Source: Nitrospirota bacterium (lineage in GTDB: Bacteria; Nitrospirota; Leptospirillia; Leptospirillales; Leptospirillaceae). From it: DNA of 64,000 nt. This document shows, one piece after another, positions 5,698 through 58,182 of the stretch. Position numbers and translations under genes: made by a program. Where the stretch lies: positions 62,001 to 126,000 of the forward strand of contig DAHVAL010000002.1 of NCBI GenBank assembly GCA_027314645.1, in the 5' to 3' direction. The notes beneath the pieces are model-generated. The model did no database searches. It worked only from the letters and a program-made list of their open reading frames with translations, and was not told the origin of the DNA. How positions within the stretch are numbered: the first letter of the stretch is position 1; each line of letters opens with the position of its first letter.

Positions 5698-8325
5698 TTA
5701 AACAACCGGTTCCAGAGTGACCGAGAGTGTCTGACCGGACGGAACACCCGATCGATGATTCCAGACAATGTCTTTACCGAACAGGGCAAGGGTCCGCTCG
5801 TCGGCAAAATGGATCGGGAAATGAACCTCCCTGTCAGAGAGACCGGCAACCGGATCTACTGGCAAGGAGATGGTTCCATGGGCACTGCGAACGAGAACAC
5901 AATTTCCTTTTTTGACTTTCATTTTGCGTGCCCATTGGCGGGGAACACGAAGCAGCCCTGAACCTTCGATGGTCATCAAGTTGGAATCGTGGGTTGTAAA
6001 GGTTCCAGAATGATTAATGGATTTGGAGAATTGGAACATGAATTCATTTCCTGATGGCTCTTGTCCCTCCGCCTTCGGCGCCTGGCCCGGGGAAACGCCC
6101 GCTTCCCATCCACGGATCTTGGAGACAACCGTTTCCCGAAGGGCTTTATGAGGGGTGGAGGGGGTGGGAAGTGCCAAAATGATTTCGCCCGTTTTTCCCT
6201 GAAAATGGGACCCGTTTCGGGTGGATGGACGAAGATCTGGGAATATCTTGAAGATTTCCTGACTGATCGAGGAGAAGTTTTCAAACGGAAGGGACGCCCC
6301 CATCTGACGCACCAACCGTAAAAGGATCTCGGCATCGGGGAGGGATTCCCCCCAGTAAGCCATCGAAGGAGCGGTCGGTTGGACAAATCCTTCGGCGCTC
6401 ACAAGATGACCTGGGCGTTCGAACGAACTCGCCGAAGGAAGAAGAAAGTGGGCGACATCGGCGATCTCGGTCTGATGCTGATCGATCACGACCAACAACT
6501 CCAATTTTCCCAAAGTTTTCCGAAGGAATTCGGAGTCGGGGATGTATTCAAAGGGATTTTCCCCAAGGGTGATGAGGGCCCGAATCTTTCCCTCTTCGAT
6601 CCCCGCAAGAATTTCCTTGAGCCCTCCTCCGGGAGAATCGAGGGTGGTTCCCCAATGGGTTCCCCACACTTTTCGATTGTCAGGGTTCCCTGAATCGAGC
6701 AATCCGGGAAGCCATTCGTAGGAGGCTCCCATCATCAGGACGCCCATGTCATTGCCCAGTTCAGGAAGGGGGAAGATTCCACTCCCCTCTTGCTCCCAAA
6801 GGCCTCTCTCCTTCAGAAGAGCGATCAATGCCTCCGAGGCTTCATATCCGGCATCCGAATGGTGAAAGCGCCGGCCGGTGACAAAGACCACTTTTCGCGA
6901 TGAGGAAAGATCGGAGAGGAGATTCTCCACCCCTTCCACCGACGCCCCGATTTTCACAAGGAGATCTTTCGAGGCGGTGTCGAGGGATCCCCCAGCCGCA
7001 AGGACCTTTCGAAGAAGCTCAAGAAAGGCGGCTTCGGAGTTGGGGAGAAGTTTGATGACCTCTTTCGCACGTGTCGACACGCTGACATCCTGGCCGTGAA
7101 CCAGGTAAAGACGGGACCGGTTCTTCCGGACCGCTTTCTTGATCGCCAGGCCGGTGATATTGCTTTCAACGGCGGGATCCGCACCGATCACGACAATGAC
7201 CTCTGCGCCAATGATGTCCTCATTGTCCACGAGCGGCCTGAGGGTTCCGGTCGCCAGCGCCAAAGGCTTGGCGATATTCATCATCCCTCTTCTTGCCCCG
7301 GAGTCGATGTAGTTGGATCGAAGGGTCTGGCGGATAAACCGCTGAAACAGGAAGGCGTCTTCGAGGGGAGTTCGGGATGAGACGAGTCCGGCCACACGGC
7401 CTGATCCTCCCGATACAATCGACTTCAGCCGGTCGGCGATCCGGGGAAGGACTTCGCTCCAGGTGCCCGGCACAAGACGGTGTTCCTTTTTGATGAGGGG
7501 CTTGTCGAGTCGTGAATGATTCTGGACATGGTTAAACCCGAAACGCCCGACAACGCAGATGGACCCTTCATTCGGGCCAAGGCCTTCTTGGGAGGAGATT
7601 CGGACGATGGCTTCGCTCTCTGTATCCACAAGCATCCGGCAGCCCGATCCGCACGAAGAACAGGTCGTCTCGATCTTTTCCATCTGCCATGGGCGAAACT
7701 GATAGCGGACGAACTTGTCCGTGATCGCCCCTGTTGGACAGATCTCAAGACAGTCCCCACAAAATTCGCAATCCAGCTTTTTTCCAAGAGGGGGACCGAT
7801 AATCGTGTCAAATCCCCTGTTTATAAAGCCGATTGCGTGGACATCCTGAATCTCATCGCAAATTCTGACGCATTTTCCACATAAAATACACCGATTCGAG
7901 TTGAAGACCAGAACGTCGCTCTTCATGTCCTCCGGTTCATCATTGCGATGGGATTCAAACCGGGAATCGGCGGCCCCGTAAGCGAAGGACATATTCTGAA
8001 GGGGACACTCTCCTCCGCAGTCGCAGACCGGGCAATCGAGAGGATGATGGAGAAGGAGAAGCTCCAGGTTTGTCTTTCTCGCGTCATGCACCTTCGCCGA
8101 TTCGGTGAGGACTTTCATTCCGTCAGAAACAGCGGTGATACATCCCATCACCGTCCGTTTGGAATCCTCAAGCTCGACGGCACAGATCCGGCAGGCACCG
8201 GCCGGATCCATTCGCGGATTATAGCAGAAGGTCGGAATCGGAAAACCCGCTTTTTCCGCGGCATGCAGAATCGTTTTGCCGGGCTCGACTTCGACCTCTT
8301 TCCCATTGATCGTGACTTTTACCAT
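5698..8325 (-). CDS. nuoG: NADH-quinone oxidoreductase subunit G (NuoG)
   Basis: Iron-sulphur backbone of the complex I NADH module, related to molybdopterin oxidoreductases but lacking the metal cofactor. The N-terminus has a [2Fe-2S] ferredoxin domain (FCYNP..GACRIC) and the DCPVCDCGGECPLQ histidine/cysteine region. Two [4Fe-4S] motifs (CILCGKCVRIC, CEFCGDCLEICP) and a CSSCGSGC motif follow. Then come a long degenerate formate-dehydrogenase-like domain and a C-terminal cofactor-binding-like barrel. At about 875 residues it is of usual size. I chose the ATG at 8325, which has a GGTGAGG site upstream, over a GTG at 8343 that overlaps the nuoF stop. Confidence 0.95.
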   Translation of the reverse strand: MVKVTINGKEVEVEPGKTILHAAEKAGFPIPTFCYNPRMDPAGACRICAVELEDSKRTVMGCITAVSDGMKVLTESAKVHDARKTNLELLLLHHPLDCPVCDCGGECPLQNMSFAYGAADSRFESHRNDEPEDMKSDVLVFNSNRCILCGKCVRICDEIQDVHAIGFINRGFDTIIGPPLGKKLDCEFCGDCLEICPTGAITDKFVRYQFRPWQMEKIETTCSSCGSGCRMLVDTESEAIVRISSQEGLGPNEGSICVVGRFGFNHVQNHSRLDKPLIKKEHRLVPGTWSEVLPRIADRLKSIVSGGSGRVAGLVSSRTPLEDAFLFQRFIRQTLRSNYIDSGARRGMMNIAKPLALATGTLRPLVDNEDIIGAEVIVVIGADPAVESNITGLAIKKAVRKNRSRLYLVHGQDVSVSTRAKEVIKLLPNSEAAFLELLRKVLAAGGSLDTASKDLLVKIGASVEGVENLLSDLSSSRKVVFVTGRRFHHSDAGYEASEALIALLKERGLWEQEGSGIFPLPELGNDMGVLMMGASYEWLPGLLDSGNPDNRKVWGTHWGTTLDSPGGGLKEILAGIEEGKIRALITLGENPFEYIPDSEFLRKTLGKLELLVVIDQHQTEIADVAHFLLPSASSFERPGHLVSAEGFVQPTAPSMAYWGESLPDAEILLRLVRQMGASLPFENFSSISQEIFKIFPDLRPSTRNGSHFQGKTGEIILALPTPSTPHKALRETVVSKIRGWEAGVSPGQAPKAEGQEPSGNEFMFQFSKSINHSGTFTTHDSNLMTIEGSGLLRVPRQWARKMKVKKGNCVLVRSAHGTISLPVDPVAGLSDREVHFPIHFADERTLALFGKDIVWNHRSGVPSGQTLSVTLEPVV

Positions 8326-49813: not shown

Positions 49814-51220
49814 ATGTCGAAACCCGTGTCCACCTCTTCAGGAATTCATCCATTGATCCATGCCTCTTCGATAAAGGACTCGTCCATCCCGCCATTGACC
49901 GGTTCCGAACAGCGGCCGCGCCCAAGAATCGGGTTGTCCACCGACCTCTACTTTCCTCCCCTTGCCCTCCTCCTTGAGGCCCTGAAGAAGGGGCCCTCCC
50001 CTGAATACCTGGAGATCTTCAGGGGGCGGACGGAAGATCTCACCCGGGCCAGGACGGAGATTCCACGGGAAATCCCCTTGGCCTACCATGGAGACTGCCT
50101 GTGGTATACGCAAGCCGATTTTTTGGATAATCCCGCCTATCGCTCCGAGGTTGGACGCGCCGTCCGGCATATGGACGCTCTTGAGGCTCCATGGATGATT
50201 CACGAGTGCGCCCAGAAGATGATGGAAGGATTCGCCTTTGGGCTCTATGCTCCCCCCCTTCTGACGGAAGAGGGGGCCACGGCCGCAAGAAATGGGGCCC
50301 TCTTCCTTCAGGAAGCCCTCGGAGAACGCCAGCTCCTCGTTGAAACTCCCCCGTTCCCCCCCCATCCCGCAGGCCGAATGGACCTCGGAGAATTCTTTTG
50401 GCGTATCACCCAGGACACCTCCATGGGGATCGGCTTGGACCTTGGCCATTGCATGACCTATCTCGCCCTCTCGAGGAGAAATCCCACTCCGGCCTCTCTC
50501 ATGGACTGGCTCCGACACTCATTTCCCCTCGAACGGGTGGTCGAAATCCACGTGGGAGGACTGGCCCAAAGGATTCTGGGCGAGGAGACCATCCTAGTCG
50601 ATGACCACACCCACCCCGTTCCCGATCTCTTATTCGACTCCCTGGAAGCCGTCTTGGACAGCCTCGACCTTCCGTCCCTCGCCGGCGTGGCCCTCGAGGT
50701 GGACAACAAGGCCATCCCCCTGATTATTCGGGAGTTCGCACGTTTCTTCGATATCGTGGAGCGGAAGGGGCGACCGGTCGTCCCCGGAGCCCGGCTCGGA
50801 CCGAGGAGACTCCCGTCCCCTCTCACCCCGGTGGAGGAACGGACCCTTCGGGAAGGATATGCGAGTCTGGGCCGCGACATGGTCGAGAACCTGGCTTCCC
50901 CTTACCGTCGGCACCTTTATCCGGAGGAAATATGGACCTTTGGAGGGGCGATGCCCGATCTCTTCCCGGAGACCCTGTCCCTTCTGTCCGTCATGGGTCT
51001 TGATGCCCGCTCCTCCTTCATTGCATTTTTCAACCGCGATCCCTCATCCTTGCTTCAATCCATGGACTTTCTCGAGGTGAAGATCATTCGTGCCCTCGCA
51101 TGGATCAAGGAGCTTGCCGACGGCCGGGGAGAGGCCTTTTCGACGATCCTTCGCACCGCCGAACGGGAAGCATCGCTCCTTCTTTCGGCCCAACACCAAT
51201 TCAATGGAGACTCCCTATGA
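49814..51220 (+). CDS. MNIO (DUF692) family multinuclear iron enzyme with C-terminal extension
   Basis: TIM-barrel protein of the DUF692/MNIO family, whose characterised members (for example MbnB) use iron clusters to modify cysteines in peptides. Candidate metal ligands are all visible: H92 (YHGD), H130 (MIHE), E177 (VETPP), D209 and H212 (GLDLGH), H246 (EIHVGG), D264, H265 and H267 (DDHTH) and E295 (LEVDN). At 468 residues it is much longer than the usual 280; residues 330-468 form an unassigned helical extension. Its stop overlaps the start of a lipoprotein gene (ATGA). The substrate is unknown. Confidence 0.8.
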   Translation: MSKPVSTSSGIHPLIHASSIKDSSIPPLTGSEQRPRPRIGLSTDLYFPPLALLLEALKKGPSPEYLEIFRGRTEDLTRARTEIPREIPLAYHGDCLWYTQADFLDNPAYRSEVGRAVRHMDALEAPWMIHECAQKMMEGFAFGLYAPPLLTEEGATAARNGALFLQEALGERQLLVETPPFPPHPAGRMDLGEFFWRITQDTSMGIGLDLGHCMTYLALSRRNPTPASLMDWLRHSFPLERVVEIHVGGLAQRILGEETILVDDHTHPVPDLLFDSLEAVLDSLDLPSLAGVALEVDNKAIPLIIREFARFFDIVERKGRPVVPGARLGPRRLPSPLTPVEERTLREGYASLGRDMVENLASPYRRHLYPEEIWTFGGAMPDLFPETLSLLSVMGLDARSSFIAFFNRDPSSLLQSMDFLEVKIIRALAWIKELADGRGEAFSTILRTAEREASLLLSAQHQFNGDSL

Positions 51221-51746: not shown

Positions 51747-51900
51747 TACCTGAACACGGGAGCGTACTTTCCCATAACCTGAAAATATGATACTTTACCC
51801 TGAGATTCCTCAAGGGGTATCCTTGTTGGTTTTAAAAGCCGGGAACCGCTCCCGGAGACTCTCGCGATCACGCCCCAACTGACGCCTATTATTAAACGGG

Positions 51901-52890
51901 ATGCTAACGGGAAAGAATGTTCCGATGCAGATTATGATATTTCCCATCTCCAAAGAGGTGGATCTTGGCATCAGAATGACCGAAATAAGGCGGATCGAAT
52001 CCTTCAAGCAATCAACGGATTTCGTGGAGGGTCGATGTTTCTTCCCCCAACAATGGTTCAACATGCCTCTTCCGGAAGGGGTGTCGGGGATGAAGGGAAT
52101 TGCCCTTGCGTCCTTCCGAAATGCAACCATTGCCGTTCCCAGGCTCGGACGCATCCTTCGCCTCCTGGACCCCGCGGGTCCGGGAACACCCCACAAGGAC
52201 TGTCCCTTCCTTTTCAAGCACCGAACCATGGAAGGGGTGGATTCATGGGTGTTGGATGTCGCCATGTTCCATAAGGCGATTTCCGGAGAGCCGATCACGC
52301 AGCATCCCGAAAGGGTCCCCACCGATAGTTCTTCGGGACTCTTTCAGCAAGTCGGACAAACGGCCCGGGACATTCAGCGGGTCCTCGCTCTTTCCGGCTC
52401 GATGATAGACTCCCTCCGGACCATGGAAGGGAAGATTCCGGAAACATCCCATGGATTGGACATCATTAGCCAGATGACCGAGGAGGCGGCCCATAAACTC
52501 ATGAACCTCCTCGAAACCATCATGGAGGACCACGCCACTCTCCGGACGATCATGGGTTCTGGCCCTGTGGACGACGTTGCCCGAGGGAAGATCGGGAAGA
52601 TTCTGGAAGCCGCCGAGGAAAAAATCATGGAAGGATTTGAAACCATGGCATTTCAGGATCTCGTCGGTCAAAACATCATACTGATAGGGGGACAACTGAA
52701 GGAACTCGAATCCCGTCTGGTACGAATTCTGATCGAATGTTCAACGGAAAGCGTCCAGAAAGTGGAGTCTTCGGGGAGTCCTTCAGGCACTCCCAATCCT
52801 GTTCACGGACAAACCCTTAAAGGCGTTGGGGCCCCAGGCGACATCGACCAGGATGCTGTCGACCAGCTCTTGTCCGAGTTCGGTTTTTAA
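51901..52890 (+). CDS. cheZ: CheZ-like CheY-P phosphatase with an extra N-terminal domain
   Basis: The C-terminal 150 residues match CheZ, which dephosphorylates the response regulator CheY. A long helical hairpin carries AFQDLVGQNI, whose D253 and Q257 correspond to the catalytic Asp and Gln of E. coli CheZ. The extreme C-terminus (DQDAVDQLLSEFGF) matches the CheY-binding helix. Residues 1-135 are not in CheZ; IFPISKEVDLGIRMTEIRRI and LPEGVSGMKGIALASFRN faintly resemble a CheW fold. No che or flagellar gene is nearby. The start is ATG 51901, or ATG 51925. Confidence 0.75.
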   Translation: MLTGKNVPMQIMIFPISKEVDLGIRMTEIRRIESFKQSTDFVEGRCFFPQQWFNMPLPEGVSGMKGIALASFRNATIAVPRLGRILRLLDPAGPGTPHKDCPFLFKHRTMEGVDSWVLDVAMFHKAISGEPITQHPERVPTDSSSGLFQQVGQTARDIQRVLALSGSMIDSLRTMEGKIPETSHGLDIISQMTEEAAHKLMNLLETIMEDHATLRTIMGSGPVDDVARGKIGKILEAAEEKIMEGFETMAFQDLVGQNIILIGGQLKELESRLVRILIECSTESVQKVESSGSPSGTPNPVHGQTLKGVGAPGDIDQDAVDQLLSEFGF

Positions 52891-52904: not shown

Positions 52905-53567
52905 TTGAGGTCGCTCACCGAAAAACAAAAATCCGTCCTGGATTTTATCGAGAGGGAAATCCGGCTTCGCCGCCAGCCTCCGACCATTAAAGAGGTCGCC
53001 CGGCACATCGGATCGGACAACACGCGTTCCGGGCTGACACACATCGAAGCCTTGATCCGCAAAGGATTTCTCGAACGGAGCCCTGGGCAGGCCCGGTCGT
53101 TGAGATTGACCGGGGCCGGAGTGGCTCTCTACGGGAACAGGGAGTCCGAAAGTCGTCGGGAAGTGCCGCTCCTGGTCGATCGGACTCTTCGTCCTGACCT
53201 CCCTGACACCTATCCTGCCCCTGGTTCTTTTTTCCCGATCCCTCCTGATTATGCCGTGATTGTGGACCCCGGGTGCGCGCTCCCCGAAGCGGACATTCGG
53301 GAAGGGGACATTCTTTTCGTCCAGAAAACCCGATATCCCCTTTCCGGAGGGATCGTTCTCTTTCGCGACCCGGCCTCGGGGAAACTTCTTCCGGGGATGC
53401 TCACAATATCGCAGAACCGGTTCATTCTCAGGTCTCCGGCGCTTTTGCATGAGGAAAAGGAGATCCGAAGGTCTGAATTCGCCTCATGGATTCAAGGGCA
53501 TCTGGTTGCGCTCTTCAGGCCGGTCAAGCGTCCTGGACCCTCATCGCCCTCAGGGGCCCATTTTTAA
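52905..53567 (+). CDS. LexA-like protein lacking the autoproteolysis residues
   Basis: A 220-residue protein. Residues 1-70 are a clear LexA-type winged helix (LTEKQKSVLDFIEREI, PPTIKEVARHIGSDN, HIEALIRKGFLERSPGQARSLRL). The C-terminal half follows the S24/LexA fold order (ADIREGDILFV, GGIVLFRD), but the catalytic GDSM is replaced by GCAL (residues 123-126). No lysine lies at the expected position after the GDI strand, and no Ala-Gly cleavage site is seen near residue 90. It should bind DNA but not self-cleave. TTG start at 52905, seven bases after AGGAGA. Confidence 0.75.
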   Translation: MRSLTEKQKSVLDFIEREIRLRRQPPTIKEVARHIGSDNTRSGLTHIEALIRKGFLERSPGQARSLRLTGAGVALYGNRESESRREVPLLVDRTLRPDLPDTYPAPGSFFPIPPDYAVIVDPGCALPEADIREGDILFVQKTRYPLSGGIVLFRDPASGKLLPGMLTISQNRFILRSPALLHEEKEIRRSEFASWIQGHLVALFRPVKRPGPSSPSGAHF

Positions 53568-53578
53568 GGAGTCATAGG

Positions 53579-54025
53579 ATGGAATTCCAAAGGGGTCACG
53601 AACCCTCCGACAGGCCGGAAGACATGACGTCTCAAGACGAATACCTTCCCGGGATCTGCAACATCGACCGAAAGGGACGGTGGCTTCGGGGAGGTGCCTC
53701 CTTTGTCGGGCTCGTTTTTGTTGTCATTTACAATGAACAATGGCAGACGGTTTTTACCCATCCTGTCCTCTATTCATTGGGCATGGTCCTTCTTTCGACC
53801 GGAACAGCCCTTTCACTGATCCAGGCCATGGCATCCTTCTGCGTCGTCGACGGTCTGCTCGGCCGCACCTTCATTCCGGGGTCCCGTCAAAAAGGACCCG
53901 TCTCCGCCCCCGAAAACAGGCTAAAAGACAGGAAGAGGGCGCTGGTTTTGATTGGCGGAGCCCTCATCTGTGGAATGATCTTCTCCGCGGTTCTTCTGGT
54001 GTCGGAAATCAATTCCGCCCGATAA
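53579..54025 (+). CDS. Small membrane protein, unknown function
   Basis: A 148-residue protein not recognised. Residues 1-35 are hydrophilic and cytoplasmic-looking. Three or four hydrophobic segments follow: about 38-56, 62-95 and 122-145. A basic loop (RLKDRKRA) precedes the last helix, and there is no signal cleavage site. AAGGAG lies 7 bases before the ATG at 53579. It sits 11 bases after the lexA-like gene and 18 bases before the SNF2 gene, so it is almost certainly co-transcribed with both. Confidence 0.7.
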   Translation: MEFQRGHEPSDRPEDMTSQDEYLPGICNIDRKGRWLRGGASFVGLVFVVIYNEQWQTVFTHPVLYSLGMVLLSTGTALSLIQAMASFCVVDGLLGRTFIPGSRQKGPVSAPENRLKDRKRALVLIGGALICGMIFSAVLLVSEINSAR

Positions 54026-54043: not shown

Positions 54044-57000
54044 ATGGAGACCCCCTACCGAAGTCAGTCCTTCCCCCCTCTCAGGCTTTCCGCCGCCCGG
54101 CGTTTGCTGGAAAAAATGACCGTGTCGCTCGATATCCCCACCTATGAGGATTTGGGAGAAATCCATGCGCAGGTTCAATTGTCCCCCGGCGCTCCGGTCT
54201 CTCTCATTCGTCTGGTCGAACACGGCGAAGGCCTTCTGGCGACTTGCCCCCTGTGCCATATCCGCGATGATCTTCCCTGCACCCATGCCATCGCTGTGCT
54301 TCTCGTTTTTCGCGAACAGCATCTCGAAAGCCCCTCCTCTCCGGCCCCCCCGGACCGACCCCTCCCCGCCCCCCCCTTCAGAACGGATACTTCAGAAGGA
54401 AGGCGGCTTCGGGATCTCCCATGCCACACCCTCCTGCTTGCAGGCACTCGAAAAAATCCTTATTTTGTCGCCCTGACGAGCCGGATGTCCCTGATGACCC
54501 ACGCGGACTTCCAACTCCTCGAGATGACCCCCCGGAGACATCGTCCGGATTTTTTGGAGGCGGAGCTTTTTTCCAGGGCGTTCGAGCCCGTCACCGGCCA
54601 TACCGGAGAAGGCAAAACGATCCCGGGCTTCCGCCCGAAACCGGGGAATCCGGAAGCGCTGTTCCGCTATCTTGCGCTCCCAGGCATCCGGATCCTCTCT
54701 GCACGCACAAAACAGGCCTACCGGATCGAAACCCCGAGCCAGCTTCCGGCCATCCGTTTCAAGGCCCAGTGGGAGAATCTTGTGGGCCATGACCTGTGTC
54801 TCGGCGGAGAGATCCTCCTCGATCGATCCCCCCGCCCCCTAAACGAGATGCTCTGGATCGGATTCGAGTCGGTCTCCGTTTTGTGCGGGAACGGATCCCT
54901 CGTGTTCCTTTCCAGGGAGAATGCAGGCCCCAGCAACCTGAGGAGGCTTTTAGAAATTGCAGGAGAAGGCCGTTCTCTCACCCGCTTCGAATGGCCGGCG
55001 CTCCTTGAACCCTTGTTGACCGAGCCCGAATTCCGGGAGTCCTTTGAATTTTCTCCGATCGGCACCTTTCCCCGATTCGAAGCGAGGTCCGCATGGAAGG
55101 CGGTCCTCCGGATTGTCGGACGGCCGGAAGGCGGCTTTTTCCTGACCCCGGAACTCCGCTATGGCGGCCATCCTTCCGTCCCCCTCTTCGGACCGGAACG
55201 CCATCGCCTTGGCGACTATCTCGTTGTCGGAGACTCGGCGGAACCTGGCCCGATCCTGATCGCACGGGATCGCGAAAAAGAATTGCTGGTACGGAATGTC
55301 TTCGAAAAGGTGGCAAGAATTTCAAGCCCGTCTGAGTCGATCCCGGTGGACGGGGAAGCGGTGGAAGACCTCCTGAACCGGGTGGTTCCAGAACTTGAAT
55401 CCCAGGGATTCCACATCGACAAGACCGGTCTCCACGATGGGACGATCCTTCCGGGGCCCGTTCACGTCTTTATCGATGTCTCCGGTCCTTCCACCCACGA
55501 TTTGACCCTACAGGGCCGCCTTCAGACACAAATGGGCCTTCTTCCCTTCCCGGGGCGACCCCCCGAAGGAAACTCCCCTCTGCTCACACTCTCTTCCGGC
55601 GTCTCCGTCCTCCTCGAAGGCGCTGCCCGGGACTACTACAGAGAACTCTGCCAACTTTTCACCCTCAACGACGAAGGGGCTGGAAGGGCCAGCCGATACT
55701 ATGTGTCCATGATGCACCTTCTGCGTCCTGATCTCCCGATCATTCCCGCTCCTGAGATCGAACTTGAGACCTTTGCCCCCACCCCCCTTTCCGAAGATTT
55801 CTTCTCAAGACTCCCGGAACTCTGCTCCGCCACGCTCCGGCCCTATCAGAAAGAGGCGATTTCCTTTCTCGCCTCCCTTCACCGCGAAGGTCTCTCGGGG
55901 ATCCTTGCCGACGAAATGGGATTGGGAAAAACCCTCAGCGTCCTGGGATTTCTGGCCTACCTGCGCCTCGAAGGACTCCACCCCCCTGGACACAGGCCCC
56001 CGCTCGTGGTTCTCCCTGCCTCGCTGCTATACAATTGGGCCCATGAGATTCAGCACTTTTTTCCGAAGTTCAGGGTTCACCTCCATGCCGGGACAACCCG
56101 GCAGGCGCGGCTCAAGAACATGGAGGAAGCGGATCTCCTTTTGACCACCTACGGGACCCTTCGAAACGATCCCCTTCTGGCGTCCGGTCCTCCCTTTTCC
56201 TGTCTCATCCTGGACGAAGCCCACACCGTCAAGAATCCCGACTCCCGCACCCATCAGGCCTTGAAGGACCTTCCCGCCCCGCTGAAGATCGCCGTGACGG
56301 GCACACCCATTGAAAACAGGGTGTCCGATCTGTGGGGACTCATGAACCTCCTGATGCCAGGACTTCTGGGCTCCCGCCTTCAATTCGAACGTAGATTTCT
56401 CCGCACTCAGGAGATGGGCCCGGAAATGGATCGGCGGATCTCCCTTCTTAGGAACCTTGTCGCTCCATTGATTCTTCGTCGAACGAAGGAGATGGTGTTG
56501 CCCGATCTTCCTCCGAAGGTCGAGGTGGACATATGGATCGATCCGTCTCCGGAAGAGCGGGATCAGTATCACAGGCTCCGCACCCAGGGACGCCAGGAGC
56601 TTCTTTCCATGGACGGCTCCCTGCACATGGCCTATTTGACCCTCCTTCTCAGGCTCAGACAATTTGCCTGCCATCCCGTGCTGCTCTCCCCGGAAACGAC
56701 CCCATGGACTGGGAGATCGAGCAAGTTCGATCTTGTCTGCGACAAAATCCAGGAAGGGGTCTCTGAAGGGCACAAAATTCTTCTTTTCAGCCAATTTACC
56801 CGCGTTCTGGACCTCTTTGAACACGCCCTGCCCCCGAAAGGGATCTCTTTCACGCGGCTCGACGGCTCCACTCCGTTGGAAGAGCGCAAGCGCCGCGTTG
56901 ATGCATTCCAATCGGACGATCCGAATGCTCCCATGGTCTTTCTGGCCAGTCTCAAGGCGGGAGGAGTAGGGCTGACCCTGACCCGGGCCGACTATGTCTT

Positions 57001-57292
57001 CCACTACGATCCGTGGTGGAATCCTCAAGCCGAATCCCAGGCGAGCGACCGCTCCCACCGCATCGGACAGACAAAAACGGTCTTTGTCTATCGATTCCTC
57101 ATGCGGGATACGGTCGAAGAACGCGTTCAGGCTCTGAAGGAATTCAAGAAGGATCTGTTCGTCCGCCTGATGAACGCAAACACCGACCCTTCGGTGGAGG
57201 GGTCCGGCCTTGGTCAGCTGTCCCTTGAAGAAATGCGGGCGCTTGTCGATGGTGACCCCGGGTTTTACAGGTCGGCCCCCCGCTCCTCATAA
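54044..57292 (+). CDS. SNF2-family DNA-dependent ATPase with N-terminal SWIM zinc finger
   Basis: A 1082-residue Swi2/Snf2 helicase-like translocase. The N-terminus has a SWIM-type zinc motif (CPLC...CTH, about residues 67-80). A long unassigned beta-rich region runs to about residue 590, then the motor: motif I DEMGLGKT, motif II LDEAHTVKN, motif III TGTPIENRVSDLWGLMN, and the C-terminal RecA fold with LFSQF, SLKAGGVGLTLT and SDRSHRIGQTKTVFVYR. Bacterial members (HepA/RapA and SWIM-SNF2) remodel protein-DNA or RNA polymerase complexes. The precise role here is unknown. Confidence 0.92.
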   Translation: METPYRSQSFPPLRLSAARRLLEKMTVSLDIPTYEDLGEIHAQVQLSPGAPVSLIRLVEHGEGLLATCPLCHIRDDLPCTHAIAVLLVFREQHLESPSSPAPPDRPLPAPPFRTDTSEGRRLRDLPCHTLLLAGTRKNPYFVALTSRMSLMTHADFQLLEMTPRRHRPDFLEAELFSRAFEPVTGHTGEGKTIPGFRPKPGNPEALFRYLALPGIRILSARTKQAYRIETPSQLPAIRFKAQWENLVGHDLCLGGEILLDRSPRPLNEMLWIGFESVSVLCGNGSLVFLSRENAGPSNLRRLLEIAGEGRSLTRFEWPALLEPLLTEPEFRESFEFSPIGTFPRFEARSAWKAVLRIVGRPEGGFFLTPELRYGGHPSVPLFGPERHRLGDYLVVGDSAEPGPILIARDREKELLVRNVFEKVARISSPSESIPVDGEAVEDLLNRVVPELESQGFHIDKTGLHDGTILPGPVHVFIDVSGPSTHDLTLQGRLQTQMGLLPFPGRPPEGNSPLLTLSSGVSVLLEGAARDYYRELCQLFTLNDEGAGRASRYYVSMMHLLRPDLPIIPAPEIELETFAPTPLSEDFFSRLPELCSATLRPYQKEAISFLASLHREGLSGILADEMGLGKTLSVLGFLAYLRLEGLHPPGHRPPLVVLPASLLYNWAHEIQHFFPKFRVHLHAGTTRQARLKNMEEADLLLTTYGTLRNDPLLASGPPFSCLILDEAHTVKNPDSRTHQALKDLPAPLKIAVTGTPIENRVSDLWGLMNLLMPGLLGSRLQFERRFLRTQEMGPEMDRRISLLRNLVAPLILRRTKEMVLPDLPPKVEVDIWIDPSPEERDQYHRLRTQGRQELLSMDGSLHMAYLTLLLRLRQFACHPVLLSPETTPWTGRSSKFDLVCDKIQEGVSEGHKILLFSQFTRVLDLFEHALPPKGISFTRLDGSTPLEERKRRVDAFQSDDPNAPMVFLASLKAGGVGLTLTRADYVFHYDPWWNPQAESQASDRSHRIGQTKTVFVYRFLMRDTVEERVQALKEFKKDLFVRLMNANTDPSVEGSGLGQLSLEEMRALVDGDPGFYRSAPRSS

Positions 57293-57399: not shown

Positions 57400-58182
57400 A
57401 TGAAAGGATATTTGGCGGGGACGACCCAAGACGAAGCCCTCGAGCATGCGCGGCATTTGAATAAGGAAGGACTTGGAACCCTTCTCGCTCCTCACTGGGA
57501 CCGGAAGGAAGACCCGGAGCATGTTCGGGCGGAAGCCCTGGACCTTGTGACGTCCATGGGGCATCGCATGATCCGCGGCGGGCTGTCTTTCGATCCCCTT
57601 GATTTTGGGCTGGAGGAAGGATGGAATGCGACCCTGGAACGGATGACTCCTGTCATTACGCGGGCCGAAGAGTACGGGTACGGGGTCTGGCTCGAGTCCG
57701 AGGACCCCGAGATGATCGGAGCCACGATCGATCTCTACCTGGGGCTGAGACCCCGGTTTCCCCACCTTGCCGTGACAATTCCGGCAAGGACGAAACGGGC
57801 GCTCTCCGATTTCGAGATGATCCGTCAGGTCCGGGGGCGGATTCGACTGGTCAAGGGACTTTCCAGGCTCGATACCGATCAGAAGCTTTCGGATCAGGAG
57901 GTTTCGGAGCGATTTCGGCTATTGATGGAACTTCTGTTTCAGAATTCCAATTTTTTCGCCATTGCGACCCACGACGCAACCCTCCTTGAGACGGCGGAAT
58001 CCTTGATGTCCACGTATCCGAAGATGTTCGAATTCCAGCTTTATATGGGAATGGATGATGAAAGAGCGAGAAAGCTCGTGTATGTGGGAGGACATCCGAC
58101 CACCATTTACCTTCCTTTTGGAGAAGGAACCAGCCGTCATATCGACCGGCTGGCCTCTTTTGGAAGGGGGCCCAGCAACTAG
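57400..58182 (+). CDS. Proline-dehydrogenase-like (PutA TIM-barrel) protein
   Basis: A 260-residue protein resembling FAD-dependent proline dehydrogenase. Matching segments are LAVTIPARTKRALSD, RGRIRLVKGLSRLD (family RLVKGAY), FAIATHDATLLE, FEFQLYMGM and TIYLPFG near the end. The family's C-terminal substrate-binding double arginine is reduced: the last helix reads RHIDRLASF. So proline may not be the substrate. No P5C dehydrogenase gene is adjacent. Its last bases overlap the converging YggX-like gene by 4 bases. Confidence 0.75.
   Translation: MKGYLAGTTQDEALEHARHLNKEGLGTLLAPHWDRKEDPEHVRAEALDLVTSMGHRMIRGGLSFDPLDFGLEEGWNATLERMTPVITRAEEYGYGVWLESEDPEMIGATIDLYLGLRPRFPHLAVTIPARTKRALSDFEMIRQVRGRIRLVKGLSRLDTDQKLSDQEVSERFRLLMELLFQNSNFFAIATHDATLLETAESLMSTYPKMFEFQLYMGMDDERARKLVYVGGHPTTIYLPFGEGTSRHIDRLASFGRGPSN

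Follow-up and report, generated by a model that had tools for sequence, protein, structure and literature searches.

Results

Organization of the lexA-B locus

The sequence analyzed here (the window) is a 64,000-nucleotide stretch of contig DAHVAL010000002.1 in the genome of a Nitrospirota bacterium of the family Leptospirillaceae (G000). At 52905..53567 on the + strand it carries a gene for a 220-residue, protease-less LexA orthologue, which we term LexA-B. The gene has a TTG start located 14 bp past the stop codon of a cheZ-like gene (ORF 51901..52890, + strand, with a conserved start MQIM at 51925; PF04344, 61.4 bits), an order that is the same in the relatives read. It is followed on the + strand by a small membrane protein gene (53579..54025; the listed ORF runs from 53486, with ATG 53579 as the likely start) without a Pfam family at E ≤ 10, a SNF2-family helicase gene (54044..57292; PF00176, 207 bits) and a proline dehydrogenase-like gene (57400..58182; PF01619, 31.9 bits), at which the syntenic block ends. 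Upstream of cheZ, a block conserved in alignments of 7 and 5 genomes (51766..51800, + strand) is probably the operon promoter. A gene similar to MbnB/TglH/ChrH also lies near cheZ (49814-51220), and by eye it appears related to an incomplete gene that G015, a sister-genus genome, has on that side of cheZ (L135 2-931).

LexA-B is composed of an N-terminal winged-helix DNA-binding domain (residues 1-69; 52905..53111, + strand) and a degenerate S24-type C-terminal domain (residues 84-208; 53154..53528, + strand). The Pfam LexA_DNA_bind family (PF01726) matches residues 1-64 with 59.8 bits against a cut-off of 23.7 (E 2.2e-16), bearing out the assignment of this half to LexA in a preliminary description of the locus made from the sequence alone. 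The Peptidase_S24 family (PF00717) scores 12.5 bits, under its cut-off of 23.3, and the NCBI lexA equivalog model TIGR00498 scores 62.8 bits against a curated cut-off of 110.95, so that the protein falls outside both families as they are defined. Its top phmmer matches among PDB sequences are LexA proteins (best 3k2z, E 4e-12).

Loss of the cleavage bond and the catalytic dyad

Alignment with canonical orthologues places Leu95-Arg96 (53187..53192) at the Ala-Gly cleavage bond, followed by a six-residue deletion; Ala125 (53277..53279), within the motif G123-C124-A125-L126 (53271-53282), at the catalytic serine; and Gly164 (53394..53396) at the catalytic lysine, all on the + strand. The Ser-Lys dyad that defines an S24 peptidase is therefore replaced by Ala125 and Gly164. 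The preliminary description had read GCAL at the nucleophile position, a cysteine at 124 and no cleavage dyad, and the alignment agrees on each. These substitutions support loss of the protease in the window protein, from which RecA-driven self-cleavage cannot be expected, as had been proposed.

The same lesions recur in the 13 orthologues of the genus. Neither Ala-Gly nor Cys-Gly occupies the cleavage columns in any of them (0/13), the six-residue deletion beside the former bond is common to all (13/13), and the lysine column holds Gly in 12 and Tyr in one. The serine column is mixed: eight orthologues keep Ser, two have Arg, and Ala, Pro and Leu occur once apiece. This pattern suggests that the lysine, the bond and the loop were lost ahead of the radiation of the genus, with the serine decaying afterwards. 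A Ser/Lys pair elsewhere in the protein could in principle take over; among the 17 residues at or after residue 85 that are invariant in the 13 orthologues, Ser, Lys, Cys and His are all missing, leaving no conserved replacement dyad. Lysine is best conserved in this region at residue 189, where the window protein has Arg.

Cleavage by an unusual chemistry, with Cys124 as the nucleophile or K160 as the base, is highly improbable. Cys124 does adjoin the serine column, and a distant MAFFT alignment with viral and verrucomicrobial LexA proteins shifts K160 under the catalytic lysine. However, cysteine is found in the window protein only, the remaining 12 orthologues having R, Q, L, P or V at this column; K160 is Lys in 3 of 13 orthologues, and with K160 as the catalytic lysine the serine column would remain Ala; a cleavable dipeptide is again absent throughout. 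The earlier suggestion that Cys124 serves another role thus finds no support, and the claim that the protein has no lysine stands for the catalytic column (G164), with the qualification that K160 can be aligned there in that one distant alignment.

Predicted structure of LexA-B

The AF2 model of the window protein (mean pLDDT 81, pTM 0.54) shows the winged helix at a pLDDT of 83-97 and an all-β C-terminal domain in which the helix and strand at 189-204 are present. The best structural match is LexA (Foldseek E 9e-13; Z 13.5 over 186 aligned residues), a match that is not independent given that the AF2 input alignment contained LexA proteins. The large rmsd of this match (15.5) is read as a difference in domain orientation, since LexA C-domains alone superimpose on the model with an rmsd of 2.6-4.5. 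The all-β order of the model and these C-domain matches are in keeping with the earlier claim that the second half retains its fold order. The fold matches also include the C-domain of phage 186 CI (Z 10.8, 106 aligned, rmsd 3.0). In known LexA structures the dimer interface is formed by the C-terminal strand region, and LexA-B would be expected to form dimers.

Distribution, descent and gene order

Of the 14 genomes available for the genus, 13 carry a LexA-B orthologue; the one without it is G011 (70% complete). All 13 genes are open reading frames, and the recurrence of the lesions across 13 of 13 open orthologues is more than chance or a sequencing accident would give; the proteins of G003 and G009 are identical and G009 has 7% contamination, so that 12 different proteins stand behind the count of 13. 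In a maximum-likelihood tree of 38 rows the 13 protease-less proteins form a single clade (support 100/100), sister to six canonical orthologues from the genera g2, g3 and g5 (96/86), and the two groups together are supported at 100/96. Branches are long (1.2 for the protease-less clade and 0.65 for the window protein) and were flagged as such in the tree, so the reading of descent leans on gene order as well. All six sister-genus orthologues retain Ala-Gly, Ser and Lys. As these canonical orthologues span three genera, a single loss of the protease, at the base of the window genus, is most likely. The residue-pattern counts on the tree rows omit L049 (the canonical paralogue LexA-A of G006), L030, L031, L004 and L006; by eye, L049 has Ala-Gly, GESM and TVK intact.

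The block formed by lexA-B and the genes for the small membrane protein, the SNF2 helicase and the proline dehydrogenase is conserved in G000 and G015, which indicates that LexA-B is an orthologue and not a stray duplicate. Together, the PF01726 match, the tree and the gene order support identification of the window protein as a LexA by descent. In G015, G017 and G014 the gene immediately before canonical lexA-B is nuoN-like (an assignment made by Pfam for G015 and from the sequence for the other two); the window genus has cheZ in this place. In G015, cheZ is on the opposite strand and lies outside the block, past the proline dehydrogenase gene. These arrangements suggest that a rearrangement placed the lexA-B block behind cheZ. 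In the three sister genera (L135, L136, L139), the position of the canonical gene behind nuoN raises the separate point that LexA may be co-expressed there with respiratory complex I genes.

Across 118 genomes of the phylum that are at least 90% complete, 42 LexA_DNA_bind matches were obtained at 41.8 bits or more, and 39 of these have a co-located S24 match among the matches listed. The remaining three belong to G000 and G002, the clade members sampled, and to G038. The pairing was done by eye, with S24 matches listed down to E ~1e-18, and weaker ones could be hidden in these counts. The G038 protein (L029, G038:C113; LexA HTH 90.7 bits) has none of Ser, Lys and Ala-Gly and is apparently an independent LexA-like case; its genome holds two more LexA matches.

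Selection on the two halves of LexA-B

The two halves of LexA-B differ strongly in constraint. The median pairwise Nei-Gojobori dN/dS is 0.050 for the DNA-binding part and 0.289 for the C-terminal part (25 of 78 pairs usable), compared with 0.146 and 0.139 for the HTH and C-terminal parts of the canonical paralogue LexA-A (27 of 45 pairs usable); these medians exclude pairs with dS outside 0.05-2 (53/78 and 18/45, respectively), and the pairs are not independent. In a matched set of 8 genomes (28 pairs), from which G009 is excluded, identity within LexA-B is 0.841 in the HTH and 0.533 in the C-terminal half, the latter being lower in 28 of 28 pairs. The corresponding values for LexA-A are 0.757 and 0.759, with the C-terminal half lower in 15 of 28. 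Matched differences for the two proteins (C-terminal 46 vs 21, HTH 4 vs 10) gave a Fisher p of 0.007, a figure drawn from two genome pairs only. By these sequence comparisons the DNA-binding half of LexA-B is under strong purifying selection, stricter than that on the LexA-A HTH, and the C-terminal half is relaxed though not neutral. The contrast indicates that DNA binding is what selection preserves.

The rapid divergence of the C-terminal half could also be taken as slow decay of the gene, with the protease gone first and DNA binding to follow, and the long branches of the clade and of the window protein point the same way. We regard decay as unlikely, given an HTH dN/dS of about 0.05, below that of the canonical paralogue, and reading frames that stay open in all 13 orthologues of a genus that has diverged deeply.

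Constraint below neutrality on a C-terminal domain retained in every orthologue is also what would be seen had this domain gained a new input, by binding a small molecule or a partner such as an antirepressor, or by coming under the control of phosphorylation. The presence of phage 186 CI among the fold matches fits such a change, and modification has a reported precedent in a non-cleavable LexA (PMC7567884). The composition of the 17 invariant residues described above speaks against it, and no new conserved pocket motif was seen; the fast evolution of the C-terminal half likewise argues against a conserved sensor. A new input of this kind is therefore a possibility to which we give limited weight.

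The canonical paralogue LexA-A

The preliminary description had called for a genome-wide search for a canonical lexA, and such a gene is indeed present in the same genome. LexA-A, encoded on contig 69 of G000, has a full S24 domain with its dyad. Within the genus, 11 of 14 genomes have LexA-A; those in which it was not found are G004 (88% complete), G008 (71%) and G012 (78%). Downstream of it in G000 are two ORFs that match no Pfam family and then a family-B DNA polymerase, and just upstream of lexA-A lies the palindrome GTGAACAAATGTTCAC, which has no other zero-mismatch site in G000. This box is absent from the aligned recA upstream regions of 17 genomes. A family-B polymerase match is found in 16 of 21 genomes of the family, and the Y-family DNA polymerase (PF00817), sought as an SOS marker, in none of the 21. 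LexA-A with its single exact box heads a cassette of two ORFs and a family-B polymerase (G000:C69, L134 5609-9441, - strand), which is perhaps the main damage-inducible unit of the organism.

Most genomes of the genus hold two LexA proteins per cell, with the C-terminal strand region present in both, an arrangement in which LexA-B could act as a dominant-negative or competing partner of LexA-A through heterodimers or a shared operator. This role, which had been offered as competition with the true LexA, is very unlikely. The LexA-A box occurs exactly once in G000, at the promoter of lexA-A itself, and the two proteins have different recognition-helix residues (NTRSGLTH in the window protein and GISAVRKH in LexA-A). 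In addition, G004 and G012 lack matches to LexA-A and DNA polymerase B yet have LexA-B, although both genomes are incomplete.

DNA specificity and operator search

The recognition-helix region reads NTRSGLTH in the window clade and S[ST]RRGLGH or NSRRGLGH in the second subclade of LexA-B. The canonical orthologues have YPKSA[SGV][AT]H at this place, and most LexA-A proteins have GISAV[RHK][KG]H. Given these differences, a change of operator in LexA-B is probable, and it would be unlikely to act at LexA-A sites. As the two subclades also differ from one another, a single fixed specificity is not indicated.

Inspection by eye of the regions upstream of cheZ-lexA, in 7 genomes from one subclade and 5 from the second, showed no common palindrome, and these searches, together with inverted-repeat and box searches in the window and a pattern search in 21 genomes, did not find an operator of LexA-B's own. 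GC-rich inverted repeats in the intergenic region of the window (51657, 51700, 51727 and 51839) do not stand out as conserved in the alignment. The patterns GAAC-N4-GTTC, TGTTC-N4-GAACA and CTGT-N8-ACAG do not occur within the window, and GTTC-N4-GAAC occurs once, at 6417. The pattern WTGAACNNNNGTTCAW is present in 7 of 21 genomes. A candidate LexA-B box near polB in G015 (TTGAACGGCTGTTCAA) was rejected, as it lies inside an ORF running on to the polB start.

Discussion

In textbooks, LexA is the prime example of a repressor that destroys itself. Canonical LexA (E. coli, T. maritima; TIGR00498, PF01726 with PF00717) is like LexA-B in its domain order, winged helix and C-terminal fold; in contrast, the window protein has lost the Ala-Gly bond, the serine and the lysine and falls below the equivalog cut-off. 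We consider it probable that LexA-B is a RecA-blind DNA-binding regulator of altered specificity, encoded directly behind cheZ, in which the C-terminal domain is kept as a scaffold. The ancestor of the genus would have had an ordinary self-cleaving LexA that lost its cleavage loop and catalytic lysine, with the serine drifting since. The winged helix would bind its operator, and the C-terminal domain would be retained only for folding and dimer formation. Because self-cleavage would no longer occur, RecA and DNA damage would leave LexA-B on, and its activity would most likely depend on a partner protein or on the amount made from its gene, which follows cheZ. The canonical LexA-A would be left to carry out SOS-type switching in that cell. 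We infer that LexA-B is a repressor rather than an activator, that it is co-transcribed with cheZ and that it is not cleaved in the cell. Of the roles offered in the preliminary description, a constitutive repressor fits best, with the repressing function itself the inferred part. Several observations count against the preferred reading: the fast C-terminal divergence would equally fit slow decay of the gene, an operator was not found upstream of its own operon, the recognition helix is variable and G011 is without the gene.

In a broader scheme, which we put forward tentatively, a repressor that senses damage would have been converted step by step, within one bacterial family, into a regulator without a switch. 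A cleavable, nuoN-linked LexA-B, as in three genera, would have come to lie behind cheZ with its block; the lysine and loop would have been lost once, the serine would have decayed several times and the recognition helix would have changed, with the one-site LexA-A/polymerase B cassette keeping the damage response as LexA-B was rewired to motility or another non-SOS programme.

Phage 186 CI, a repressor that is not known to cleave itself, is relieved through an antirepressor. Its C-domain has the LexA fold, as in LexA-B, but it has a different DNA-binding domain and is phage-borne. Closer in kind is the LexA of Synechocystis sp. PCC 6803, which is reported to be chromosomal and to lack the cleavage bond and the serine, and has been suggested to have a non-SOS function (PMC4759255, PMC7567884, PMC3091678) and possibly to be controlled by phosphorylation (PMC7567884). 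Like it, the window protein lacks the bond and the serine and retains the DNA-binding domain. The changes reported for Synechocystis concern one strain, with Gly-Gly in place of Ala-Gly and Asp in place of Ser, whereas LexA-B is also without the lysine and a loop segment, throughout a genus and with a canonical LexA alongside. GIL01 gp6 is reported to be a LexA homologue reduced to its DNA-binding part that has a new operator and acts as an activator (PMC6182141); unlike LexA-B, it is truncated and phage-borne. Leptospira interrogans LexA2 is described as a second, divergent LexA with an altered operator, and differs from LexA-B in having Ser, Lys and a Cys-Gly bond and in being depleted after UV (PMC3789691). 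A literature search by titles and the beginnings of abstracts returned no protease-less LexA in Leptospirillum or Nitrospirae. A non-cleavable LexA is thus not new in kind; as far as this search extends, what is new is that the protease has been lost across a clade whose genomes mostly also encode a canonical LexA, and that the apparent sequence of losses can be followed.

Genes of this type call for caution in the annotation of SOS repressors. The order in which a regulatory protease dies can probably be seen here, the lysine and cleavage loop going first and the serine later. A genus with a switchless LexA orthologue, whose HTH is under tighter selection than that of its paralogue, offers a natural test of what LexA does without RecA.
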